The notes beneath the pieces are model-generated. The model was given only the letters and a program-made list of their open reading frames with translations. It was not told where the DNA came from and ran no database searches. This document shows, piece after piece, positions 35,889 to 58,720 of a stretch of DNA of 64,000 nt (positions within the stretch are counted from its first letter, which is position 1; each line of letters starts with the position of its first letter). Made by a program: the position numbers and the translations under genes. Source of the stretch: Planctomycetaceae bacterium (GTDB lineage: Bacteria > Planctomycetota > Planctomycetia > Planctomycetales > Planctomycetaceae); NCBI GenBank assembly GCA_020850695.1, contig JADZEF010000086.1, positions 1-64,000 on the forward strand, given 5' to 3'.

Positions 35889-37076
35889 ATGAAGATCCAC
35901 GAGTATCAGGCCAAGCAGTTGTTTGCGGCGGCGGGCGTCGCCGTGCCGAAGGGGATTGTCGCGAAGACGCCGGACGAGGCGGCCGCGGCCTTCACCGAGC
36001 TTGGCGGCCCGCTCGCGGTGGTGAAGTCGCAGATCCATGCGGGGGGGCGCGGCAAGGGACGGTTCAAGGAACATCCCGAGCAGGCGGGCGTCGTGCTGGT
36101 GCGGTCGGCCGACGAGGCGAAGGCCAACGCGGCCCGGATGCTGGGGAAGACCCTCGTCACGATCCAGTCGGGCGAGGAAGGGAAGACAGTCAACACACTG
36201 CTCGTCGAGCAGGGACTCAACATCGCACGCGAGCTGTATCTCGGCGTCGTGGTCGATCGCGAAGCGGGCGGTCCGATCCTCATCATGTCGTCCGAAGGGG
36301 GCATGAACATCGAGGAAGTGGCCGAGAAGCATCCCGAGAAGATTCTGCACGAAGCGTTCGACCCGGCCGCCGGTCTCCAGCCGTTCCAGGCCCGCAAGAT
36401 GGCCTTTGAGCTGGGACTCGAAGGAGAAGCCCTGAAGAGTGCGGCGAAGTTCCTGCCGGCGGTCTGCAAGTTCTTCGTCGACAACGACTGCAGCATGACC
36501 GAGATCAACCCGCTCGTCGTCACGAAGGAAGGGGCACTCATCGCTCTCGACGGCAAGGTGACGTTCGACGACAACGCCTTGTTCCGCCACAAGAACTTCG
36601 AGCCGCTCCGCGACCTGAACGAGGAAGAGCCGGCCGAAGTGCGGGCGTCGAACACCGGGCTCAGCTATGTGAAGCTGGACGGCAACATCGGCTGCCTGGT
36701 CAACGGGGCCGGGCTGGCGATGAGCACGATGGACCTCATCAAGTATCACGGGGGCGAGCCGGCGAACTTCCTCGACGTCGGCGGCGGTGCGAACGTCGAT
36801 CAGGTGACCGAGGCGTTCCGCATCATCCTCGCCGATCCGAACGTGAAGGCGGTACTGGTCAACATCTTCGGCGGCATTATGAAGTGCGACACCATCGTCA
36901 CCGCACTGCTTGAGGCGTACGAGAAGGTCGGCTTCCACGTCCCGCTGGTGGTGCGGCTGGAAGGGACCAATGTGAAGATCGCCCGCGAGATGCTGGCCAA
37001 CAGCGGCCGAAACATCATCGCGGCGAACGACCTGACCGATGCGGCGAAGAAGGTGGTGGCGACCTTGAAGGCATGA
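35889..37076 (+). CDS. sucC: Succinate--CoA ligase, ADP-forming, beta subunit
   Basis: 395 residues. TCA-cycle enzyme subunit with the ATP-grasp fold: [35 protein letters not shown], the nucleotide contacts and [12 protein letters not shown] near the C-terminus. ATG 35889 has GAGGAA upstream; this is the classical start. The alpha subunit gene follows, but is displaced by a 602-bp insert. Confidence 0.97.
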
Positions 37077-37081
37077 AGCCG

Positions 37082-37127
37082 GAGTGCGAAGAGTTTGAAA
37101 GGTGCGAAGAGTGTGAAGAGCTGGAAC
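37082..37127. repeat. Left arm of inverted repeat around the S23-type gene
   Basis: Begins 5 bp after the sucC stop. Composed of the words GTGCGAAGAG, TTTGAA, GTGTGAAGAG. Matches the reverse complement of 37623-37668 at about 36 of 43 positions. Confidence 0.85.
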
Positions 37128-37200
37128 GCTCTCGCGTTGTCGGGAGCGGGTTGAATTGAGCTCAGTCATCAGGTTCATAGATCGAGGCTCGCGTCGATCC

Positions 37201-37608
37201 ATGAGAAACTCTTCCGCGGAATCGTACTTCGCGCCCCTTGCACGATCGTTCGAGCAACTGTGGATCTGGCAGCAATCGCGAGAGATGGTTCGCGAGGTCT
37301 ATCGCGATTTCAGCGACGAAGGGCCGGCTGCTCGAGACTTCGGATTCAGAAAGCAGGTTCAATGTGCTGCCGTCTCGATCATGAACAACATCGCGGAAGG
37401 TTTTGAACGCGACAGCGATGCTGACTTCGCACGATTCTTATCCATTGCCAAAGCGTCATCCGGCGAAGTCCGAAGCATGTACTACGTCGCAGAAGATCTT
37501 CACTATGTCACACCGGACATCGCCGCGGAGCGGCGAGGAAAGCTACGACAAATCTCCGCCGGAATCACTTCGTTCCGGGCACGCTTGATACCTCAGCAGG
37601 CGGAATGA
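37201..37608 (+). CDS. Four-helix-bundle protein (S23/intervening-sequence family)
   Basis: 135 residues, normal for the family. Family blocks: [19 protein letters not shown] (16-34), [32 protein letters not shown] (59-90). Homologues are encoded in 23S rRNA intervening sequences and, as Avd, beside diversity-generating retroelements; they form ring-shaped pentamers binding nucleic acid. Here it is free-standing, bounded by inverted repeats and placed between sucC and sucD. No reverse transcriptase, variable repeat or transposase is near. ATG 37201 used; an in-frame TTG at 37156 is less likely. Composition is lower in GC than sucC and sucD, consistent with a mobile insert. Confidence 0.9.
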
Positions 37609-37622
37609 TCCAGATCATCGGC

Positions 37623-37668
37623 GTCCTGCTCTTCGCACTCTTTACACTCTTCAAACTCTTCGCACCCT
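37623..37668. repeat. Right arm of inverted repeat around the S23-type gene
   Basis: Reads CTCTTCGCACTC..ACACTCTTCAAACTCTTCGCAC and ends 10 bp before the sucD start. Pairs with the left arm at 37082-37127; the two arms could close a 590-base hairpin in the sucCD transcript. Confidence 0.85.
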
Positions 37669-37678
37669 GCCTGCCCCT

Positions 37679-38584
37679 ATGAGCATCCTCGTCGACAAGA
37701 ACACCCGCATCATCTGTCAGGGCATCACCGGCAAGGTCGGGTTGTTCCACAGCCAGCAGTGCCGCGCCTACGCGAAGGAATTCCGCCCGAACGAGAACGT
37801 CTTCGTCGGGGGCTGCACGCCGGGGAAGGGGGGGACCGAGGTCGACGGGTTCCCGGTGTTCAACACCGTGGAAGAGGCGGTGAAGAAGGCGGGGGCGAAC
37901 TGCTCCCTGATCTTCGTGCCGCCGCCGGCGTGTGCGGACGCCATCATGGAAGCGGCCGATGCGGGGATCGACTTGATCGTCGCCATTACCGAGGGAACAC
38001 CCGTCATCGACATGGTGCGGGCGGCCAATTACCTCAAGGGAAAGAAGAGCCGGCTGATCGGCCCGAACTGCCCCGGCATCATCACGCCGGGCGTCGCCAA
38101 GATCGGCATCATGCCGGGGTACATTCACAAGCCGGGCTCGGTGGGGCTCATCAGCAAGTCGGGAACGTTGACCTACGAAGCGGCCTGGCAGTTGGGGAAC
38201 CTGGGCTTGGGGCAGTCGACCGCCATCGGCATCGGCGGAGATCCGATCATCGGCACGACGTTCATCGACCTGCTCCGGATGTTCGAGGAAGACCCCGGCA
38301 CCGAAGCGATCCTCATGATCGGCGAGATCGGCGGCAACCTCGAGATCCAGGCGGCCGAGTACATCAAGCAGCATGTGAAGAAGCCTGTCGCGGGGTTCAT
38401 TGCAGGGCAGACGGCCCCTCCGGGCAAGCGGATGGGGCATGCCGGGGCCATTATTTCGGGTGGGAAGGGAACCGCTGCGGAGAAGATCGCCGCGTTGGAA
38501 GCGGCCGGTGTCGTCGTGGCGAAGAGCCCCGCCGAAATGGGGGCCGCGATGAAGACCGCCATCGAGCGTCGCAACAAGAAGTGA
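37679..38584 (+). CDS. sucD: Succinate--CoA ligase, ADP-forming, alpha subunit
   Basis: 301 residues. CoA-binding Rossmann domain ([18 protein letters not shown]), [21 protein letters not shown] and the phosphorylated His254 in [14 protein letters not shown]. Functions with SucC in the TCA cycle. Unusually for the second gene of this operon, the leader just before ATG 37679 (CCTGCCTGCCCCT) has no Shine-Dalgarno sequence, because the repeat arm lies there. Confidence 0.97.
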
Positions 38585-38590
38585 GCTGCC

Positions 38591-39382
38591 GTGGAGCAGA
38601 TTCCGGTCGAAGCGGTGTGGATCGGCGGGGGTCTTGTGGTACTGGCGGGGTTGTTCTACCTCGGCATCCCGCTGCTCATCTTTCAGAACACGCAGTTCGA
38701 GGCCGATCCCAAGATCGTCCCGTTCGACGTGAACACCCAGAAGTGGCCGAAGCCGATCGAGCGGCTGTTCAACACCGCCCGCGAGGCGCTCGACGAGATG
38801 GGGTTCGAGATGATGGAGGGGATCAAGCTCCCCTCCGCGGCGCCGAACGTCCGGACGGTGGCGATCCTGTTCCTCAACCGCGAGTCGCGCGACTACGCGA
38901 TGGCGACCGCCATGCATGCCGTGCCGTTCGAGCCGGGAGGGCTTCAGACCCTCTATGTCGAGTTCACCTGCCGCTTCCGGAACAAGGTGGTCGTCAACAC
39001 GAACAACTCGCACCAGTTGAGCGGGCTGCCGTCGCGCGAGCATGTCGTCTCGAACTGGCTGCCGAGCGTCACCGACCCGGCCGATCTGTACGAGATTCAT
39101 CTCCGGATTGCGGACGACGTCCAGAGCCGGTCGCAGAAGATCCTGCGCCACGAGGCGGAATTCGGCGGCGACATGCAGGCCTATGTGCAGGCCGCGATTA
39201 CCGAGTCGTTCGAGGATGCGGCTCAGGCCGGCTGGCTGTACCTGACGTCCGACGGGCGGTACTTCAAGCCGACGCTCAAGGGGGCGTACCTCATGACCTG
39301 GGGCGAACTCTGGCCGATGAAGATGTTCCGCAAAGGGAAGCGGAACAAGATCGAGCGCGAGGTGCTGGCGCGTTATGGATGA
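38591..39382 (+). CDS. Membrane-anchored protein of unknown function
   Basis: 263 residues with GTG start, 6 bp after sucD, so probably co-transcribed with it. One N-terminal transmembrane helix (IGGGLVVLAGLFYLGIPLLIF, about 11-31), then a soluble domain with a beta-rich middle (VRTVAILFLNRESRDYAM, LYVEFTCRFRNKVVVNTN) and basic C-terminus (MKMFRKGKRNKIERE). No family recognised; it may be a planctomycete-specific conserved protein. Confidence 0.75.
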   Translation: MEQIPVEAVWIGGGLVVLAGLFYLGIPLLIFQNTQFEADPKIVPFDVNTQKWPKPIERLFNTAREALDEMGFEMMEGIKLPSAAPNVRTVAILFLNRESRDYAMATAMHAVPFEPGGLQTLYVEFTCRFRNKVVVNTNNSHQLSGLPSREHVVSNWLPSVTDPADLYEIHLRIADDVQSRSQKILRHEAEFGGDMQAYVQAAITESFEDAAQAGWLYLTSDGRYFKPTLKGAYLMTWGELWPMKMFRKGKRNKIEREVLARYG

Positions 39383-39437
39383 CGCCGCTATGATCGGGGA
39401 GAAGGTCGCGCTTCCGAAAGAAATGGGGAACCCTGCC

Positions 39438-40232
39438 ATGCCGTCGCCGTTTCCAGGAATGGACCCGTATCTCGAAAATCCGGCGACCTGGCCGAATCTG
39501 CATCTGAACCTGATCGCTGGCATTCAACGTCGACTGACGCGAGATCTTCGCCCGCGGTATTTCGCCCGAGCGGAAGAGAGGGTCTACATTTCGGACGAAG
39601 ACGATCCCGGACGCCCGGTGATCGTCCCGGACGTCCGGATCATCGCGAAGCAGGATGATTCGGCCGCGATCTGGAATCGGCCCGAGGGCTCGGTGGCGAC
39701 GATCGAGCCGGTCGTCATGACGACTTTAATCGAGGACGAGATCCACGAACCGCGCGTCGAGGTGATCGATGCGAAGACGAAGAGCGTCGTGACGGTCATC
39801 GAGGTGCTGAGCCCCACGAACAAGATCGCGGGTTCGCGCGGGCAGGAGAGCTTTCGGAAAAAGCGGTCGGAGGTGATGGGGTCGAGCTCGCACTGGGTCG
39901 AGATCGATCTGCTGCGAAGCGGCTTGCGGTTGGTCGCCGGGGAAATCCTGCCGCGGGGCGACTATTTCGTCCACGTGTCGCGGGTCGATCGCCGTCCCAA
40001 GGGGCTGGTGTGGCCGATCCGTCTGCATCAACCGCTCCCCGTCGTCGACATCCCGCTGCTGCCGGGCGACGACGACTACCGTCTTGACCTTCAGCAGATT
40101 CTGAACGCGGCATACGACGATTCCGGCTACGATCTCGAGACCGACTACACGGTCGATCCACCGCCCCCGCTGACGGCCGAGCAAGCCGAATGGATCGACC
40201 GGCACCTGCGGTCGCAGGGCCTGCGGAAGTGA
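39438..40232 (+). CDS. DUF4058 family protein
   Basis: 264 residues beginning MPSPFPGMDPYLE, the classical N-terminus of this family, which decided the start over ATG 39375 and ATG 39423. Core motifs VIEVLSPTNK and a conserved WVEIDLLRSG are present; VIEVLSPxNK resembles the ExK part of a PD-(D/E)xK nuclease-like core. DUF4058 is common in cyanobacteria and planctomycetes with unknown function. Confidence 0.88.
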   Translation: MPSPFPGMDPYLENPATWPNLHLNLIAGIQRRLTRDLRPRYFARAEERVYISDEDDPGRPVIVPDVRIIAKQDDSAAIWNRPEGSVATIEPVVMTTLIEDEIHEPRVEVIDAKTKSVVTVIEVLSPTNKIAGSRGQESFRKKRSEVMGSSSHWVEIDLLRSGLRLVAGEILPRGDYFVHVSRVDRRPKGLVWPIRLHQPLPVVDIPLLPGDDDYRLDLQQILNAAYDDSGYDLETDYTVDPPPPLTAEQAEWIDRHLRSQGLRK

Positions 40233-47770: not shown

Positions 47771-47857
47771 AGTGGGTAGTGGGTAGCCAGAAGGAGCTGG
47801 CAGTTCGCTCTTTTGCTTTTCTGGCTCCCCACTATCCACTACTAACTATCCACTATT
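47771..47857. repeat. Inverted repeat overlapping the PP2C stop codon
   Basis: Left arm GTGGGTAGTGGGTAGCCAGAA (47773-47792 core) and right arm 47820-47857 (reverse: AGTGGATAGTGGGGAGCCAG). An inner GGAGC...GCTCC pairing extends the structure. The stop codon of the PP2C gene (47853-47855) lies inside the right arm. Confidence 0.75.
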
Positions 47858-58685: not shown

Positions 58686-58720
58686 GCAGTGGGTAGTGGG
58701 TAGTTGGCAGTGAGTAGGGA
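58686..58720. repeat. Half copy of the GTGGGTAGT repeat
   Basis: GCAGTGGGTAGTGGGTAGTT and GGCAGTGAGTAGGGA words directly after the Nudix-like gene stop. Same words as the left arm of the element at 47771; no matching second arm is present. Confidence 0.6.

Follow-up and report, generated by a model that had tools for sequence, protein, structure and literature searches.

S23 family proteins are encoded by open reading frames (ORFs) within intervening sequences (IVSs) of 23S rRNA genes, as described for Coxiella and Leptospira (PMC4990558), and have been reported to be homologous to Avd of diversity-generating retroelements (PMC10053308). Intergenic arrays of short repeats have also been described, including GGGAATC heptamers in Xanthomonas, which form 70 convergent pairs in one genome and 75 in another and were generally not linked to mobile elements (PMC4692102, 2015), and TAACTGA heptamers in Beggiatoaceae (PMC4679880). 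Here we describe a locus in which the two are united. Within a 64,000-nt stretch of a Planctomycetaceae bacterium genome (contig JADZEF010000086.1, referred to here as the window), an S23 gene lies between sucC and sucD, in an essential metabolic operon, and is bracketed by inverted arrays of a 9-nt tandem repeat, unlike ordinary terminal repeats. The element in this spacer is likely to belong to a widespread family of dispersing elements of very small size, each consisting of an S23 gene between inverted arrays with a unit of 7 to 10 nt. As far as could be seen, S23 genes and short repeat arrays were each known already and their union is new; no paper tying S23 genes to inverted short tandem repeats was found in the open-access literature, a scope outside which most subscription literature lies.

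Like the 23S rRNA IVSs, the sucCD element is an insertion that carries an S23 ORF and has complementary ends able to form a long stem. However, it is located between protein genes and outside the 23S rRNA gene, and the arms of S23 elements are short tandem arrays with a locus-specific unit and with dispersed, gene-less companions. A gene between inverted repeats, together with many gene-less, inward-facing and mostly intergenic pairs, is also characteristic of the REPIN-RAYT system (PMC3116915), but the gene here is S23, with no Y1 transposase between the repeats, and tandem arrays of 7 to 10 nt, whose unit changes between loci and species, take the place of palindromes of 20 to 40 nt. Miniature inverted-repeat transposable elements (MITEs) are likewise short, gene-less, intergenic and multicopy, with inverted ends; in contrast to these, no transposase relative was identified, no target-site duplication was seen at the empty site compared below (L293 versus L335), and the ends are tandem arrays. 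The heptamer families of Xanthomonas and Beggiatoaceae share with the present arms the form of intergenic 7-nt arrays, and the Xanthomonas GGGAATC unit, which forms convergent pairs, flanks the S23 genes of XCC0516 relatives (see below); no S23 link is reported in either description (PMC4692102, PMC4679880).

Inverted arrays at sucCD and at other S23 genes

The sucC-sucD spacer measures 602 nt (sucC end, 37076; sucD start, 37679), and the ORF within it matched S23 families only in Pfam and NCBIfam profile searches, with scores above the curated cut-offs (103.1 versus 33.8 bits for PF05635 and 92.7 versus 24 for TIGR02436). The ORF ends at 37608 and can start either at an ATG at 37201, giving 135 amino acids, or at an in-frame TTG at 37156, giving 150 amino acids. 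The initial annotation of this DNA, which had placed an S23-type gene of 135 residues between sucC and sucD, is borne out by these matches and coordinates; the inverted arms that it had marked were recovered as well, although their tandem structure and their dispersed repeat family had escaped it. Both arms are tandem arrays of period 9 with about four units each, according to a repeat search and a tandem repeat finder, and positions 37077-37125 pair with 37624-37672 at 82% complementarity over 49 nt. The repeat search revealed no long direct repeat within 36900-37800, an Rfam search gave no match, the defence and phage libraries yielded nothing significant, and no match was found among 50,697 phage records.

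Arms were scored by aligning the left flank of each S23 locus to the reverse complement of its own right flank, with a threshold of at least 36. A first set comprised 94 distinct S23 loci, mainly from planctomycete relatives. A second set comprised 76 loci from Bacteroidota, Acidobacteriota, Pseudomonadota, Chloroflexota, Verrucomicrobiota, Fibrobacterota, Synergistota, Patescibacteria and other groups, plus a few planctomycetes; its percentages are not population estimates, since its loci were recruited by similarity to one S23 type, at most 80 in number. The threshold was reached by 66% of the 94 loci, compared with 0.5% when left flanks were cross-paired with the right flanks of other loci and with 11% in direct instead of inverted orientation, and by 57% of the 76 loci, compared with 0.9% upon cross-pairing. 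Among 400 ordinary ORFs from genome samples, 0.5% reached 36 and none reached 40. The sucCD arms score 54; as no cross-locus pair reached 50 and no control ORF reached 40, chance is ruled out for them. Bracketing by inverted arrays is the rule for S23 genes across about a dozen bacterial phyla. Within 825 kb of sequence, either unbiased or from the window, no gene besides S23 recurred between arms of this kind.

Nearly all arms consist of short tandem repeats, with a unit that varies between loci and agrees between the two arms of one locus, and their period, pooled over armed loci, was 7 in 89 cases, 8 in 18 and 9 in 4. The arm upstream of the S23 gene is C-poor (13% C and 36% G). An AG dinucleotide in every unit was rejected as a universal feature, being a trend only (49/112) and one with which GGGAATC arms break. 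Plasmid-borne S23 genes are armed too, as seen on three plasmids (Nostoc, Riemerella and Pseudanabaena). On the plasmid of Pseudanabaena galeata, the armed S23 gene sits between cas6 and cas4.

The closest solved structure to the sucCD S23 protein is PDB 2gsc (E 5.5e-13), that is, XCC0516, which we take to be from X. campestris. Among 29 S23 genes whose products are 60 to 76% identical to XCC0516, in what are presumably Xanthomonadaceae genomes, 27 are bracketed by arrays whose unit is GGGAATC, GGGATTC, GTGATTC or a near variant.

A search of the source genome with the sucCD element returned a second S23 copy (L002), whose protein is about 71% identical, as well as matches to the arms alone. 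Gene-less inward pairs with short loops were found at L129, L133, L136, L138, L141 (within a tRNA cluster) and L142, and non-repeat inner ends, GCAGGA ... TCCTGC, are common to these pairs and L002. Neighbouring hits to the core GTGCGAAGAGGCAGGA, allowing up to 2 mismatches and a distance of at most 250 nt, formed 12 inward-facing pairs and no outward-facing one. A second arm family, AGTGGGTAGCCAGA, forms 24 inward pairs versus 1 outward pair in the same genome, and its arms bracket the S23 gene between atpG and atpD at L004 (gene names from reading the flanks). The search for further arm copies proposed in the initial annotation thus returned copies both with and without the gene. In contig C40 of genome G000, at about 9.8 to 11.3 kb (L141), a tRNA cluster holds several mini-elements of two arm families in about 1.5 kb.

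Occupied and empty sites

S23 was found in none of the 29 sucD loci of relatives. At the 19 of these loci with a recognised upstream sucC, the spacer spans 9 to 226 nt, apart from two of 863 and 1294 nt in which another gene is present, and one relative (L030) carries a gene-less inverted heptamer pair in the sucC-sucD spacer. With its sucD loci free of S23 in relatives and its arms present elsewhere with and without the gene, the element conforms to the free-standing, IVS-like insertion that had been proposed; neither a gene shared by all relatives without repeats nor arms confined to this one place would describe it. A DUF4058-like gene, recognised by eye, lies in or beside the sucC-sucD spacer of L022 and L023, where it ends in a short tandem array, and also upstream of sucD in L010, L012 and L033; a similar gene is present in the window at 39375-40232.

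A finer site comparison was made among 119 Mesorhizobium genomes, in about 27 of which an S23 gene with TAGGCAG arms occupies one intergenic site. These arms form gene-less mini-elements too (L303, L304, L306 and L309). The site is empty in twelve directly read loci (L335-L339 and L351-L357), the S23 gene is internally deleted in L344, L345, L347 and L348, and in three genomes that are scattered over the tree (L341-L343), the same site holds a gene-less TAGTGAA pair instead. In several genomes, the stop codon of the upstream gene comes from the first repeat unit, and comparison of L293 with L335, the best-matched empty site, indicates that about 14 nt were replaced by the insertion. Both arms of L348 have shifted from a 7-nt to an 8-nt unit; arm matching is frequent and not absolute, since the arms differ in L318 and L308. 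When the flanks are placed in a tree, sites with S23, gene-less sites and empty sites are intermixed. Taken together, the S23 gene and its arms act as one unit that has gene-less relatives and is polymorphic in its occupancy of a site. A different short and roughly palindromic repeat (ATGCATGTCGCCCAAAAGTG...) is located in the same intergenic site in L340 and L350.

At several intergenic sites, the S23 proteins of different genomes are spread over more than one clade of the protein tree. This suggests that these places have been invaded more than once, although a tree of about 100 residues is weak. Across 24 Mesorhizobium S23 genes, the median dN/dS was 0.072; the gene is under purifying selection, and the protein is therefore maintained. 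According to simple ORF-based gene calls, S23 has the same direction as its co-directional neighbours in 41 cases and the opposite direction in 11 in the planctomycete set, and in 53 and 2 cases, respectively, in the second set (94 versus 13 for both sets). Being usually co-oriented with its operon neighbours, S23 therefore rides as an extra cistron.

Dispersal and its alternatives

We consider it probable that the S23 gene and its arms form a dispersing element, and somewhat less likely than not that S23 acts directly on the arrays. Such an element would copy itself to new sites with S23 as its own protein, and the gene-less copies would be its MITE-like companions. Our preferred guess, based on the reported Avd homology and on the five-chain crystal entries of related S23 structures, is that S23 is probably an oligomeric nucleic-acid-binding protein, which may recognise the arrays as single strands or hairpins, in its own element in cis as well as at gene-less copies. 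Since no transposase or reverse transcriptase gene is present within the element, host or trans-acting enzymes would perform the cutting and copying. Several observations weigh against this explanation. Clear arms are missing at about one quarter to one third of S23 loci, and the arms of some elements are mismatched, as noted for L308 and L318. No near-identical S23 copies were found in one genome, the best pair in the source genome being 71 to 72% identical at the amino acid level, so that no recent transposition was caught. Furthermore, the junction in L293 versus L335, the one well-matched empty site, is ragged and has no target-site duplication, and the presence and absence of S23 in Mesorhizobium could stem in part from loss and recombination.

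It is less likely, and in our judgement improbable, that S23 is a passenger and another enzyme mobilises the arrays, either a Y1/RAYT-type transposase, as in REPIN systems, or a reverse transcriptase. The inward pairs and gene-less copies give a REPIN-like layout (PMC3116915), and matches to RVT_1 and Y1 were present in 54 and 48, respectively, of 59 relatives, the source genome included; since both families are near-ubiquitous, this test of co-occurrence is weak. Four S23-bearing genomes lack RVT_1 (G012, G040, G042 and G043) and three lack Y1 (G010, G043 and G054), and G043, which has an armed S23 gene, has neither, which indicates that neither enzyme is strictly necessary; a reverse transcriptase or Y1 transposase was thus rejected as an obligatory partner. 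The purifying selection on S23 and the lack of any other gene that recurs within such arms also speak against a passenger role. As for the suggested connection to Avd and its retroelements, it did not hold as a cis system: none of the RVT_1 matches in the source genome lies on the S23 contig (C87).

RNA excision as in rRNA IVSs is structurally possible, and the corresponding alternative is that the arms would pair in the sucC-S23-sucD transcript and be retained for this RNA function, with RNase III cutting the stem, freeing the S23 RNA and splitting the operon mRNA. In the predicted RNA fold, the arms form a long stem that closes the S23 ORF (z -3.4); the Coxiella IVS, with its 28-bp terminal stem, S23 ORF and RNase III cleavage, shares this layout (PMC4990558), and the strong co-orientation of S23 with its neighbours fits as well. 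However, arm mismatches have no G-U bias (110 versus 133; p 0.16), and in 25 Mesorhizobium elements, the length of the left array shows no significant correlation with that of the right (rho 0.28; p 0.18), so that there is no sign of selection on RNA pairing, and gene-less copies at many sites would be left unexplained. We regard RNA processing as the reason for the arms as an unlikely account. Far less plausible still is that the arms are ordinary intergenic tandem repeats produced by replication slippage, among which S23 lies by chance. Array length changes rapidly, and single arrays without an inverted partner do occur (L302 and L311, and 58688-58717 in the window), but inverted matching is locus specific and much rarer in direct orientation, and the pairs are almost all inward facing, with common non-repeat inner ends. 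Slippage is refuted as a full explanation and probably accounts for array length only.

A broader form of the dispersal hypothesis, to which we give slightly less than even chances, is that S23 elements constitute a new class of mobile elements, in which a four-helix-bundle protein without a recognisable catalytic domain would act on inverted arrays and would carry both itself and gene-less copies through a large part of the bacterial domain; by the same tentative reading, the array unit could change while the two arms stay matched. If true, it would also account for orphan families of heptamer repeats, the GGGAATC family in Xanthomonas among them. S23 genes are widely annotated as "four helix bundle protein" without a function, and intergenic heptamer arrays have repeatedly been described without an agent; the two are now linked in about a dozen phyla. 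Should S23 be the driver of the repeats, it would define a mobile element that carries no recognisable enzyme and that generates variation within operons, sucCD and atp among them; it would also place Avd and the rRNA IVSs in a free-living context. With its occupied and empty sites, Mesorhizobium allows a direct test of this in cultured bacteria.

Features of the window

The features of the locus and a gene-less mini-element found elsewhere in the window are listed in Table 1.

Table 1. Coordinates of the sucCD S23 element, its host genes and a related mini-element in the window
Feature	Position	Strand	Basis
sucC (succinate-CoA ligase beta), upstream host gene	35889..37076	+	NCBIfam equivalog PRK00696, E 3e-165; start inferred from family match
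Left arm, tandem array, 9-nt unit (GAGTGCGAA type), C-poor on + strand	37082..37126		Repeat search and tandem repeat finder; related arms dispersed in genome
S23 gene (PF05635, four-helix bundle)	37156..37608	+	Pfam E 1.2e-29, TIGR02436; PDB 2gsc E 5.5e-13
Right arm, inverted array (CTCTTCRCA type), complementary to left arm	37623..37668		Repeat search and tandem repeat finder; predicted RNA fold
sucD (succinate-CoA ligase alpha), downstream host gene	37679..38584	+	NCBIfam equivalog PRK05678, E 5e-133
Gene-less mini-element, AGTGGGTAGCCAGA family (as at L004)	47771..47857		Sequence; family search

The partnerless array at 58688-58717 has the unit AGTGGGT and belongs to the arm family of this mini-element. 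Additionally, two mutually inverted heptamer arrays of the CAGGAGT type are located at 1978-2010 and 2793-2830; one immediately precedes the start of a minus-strand ORF resembling isoleucyl-tRNA synthetase, and the other lies within this ORF, where it forms an in-frame insert of about 45 residues.
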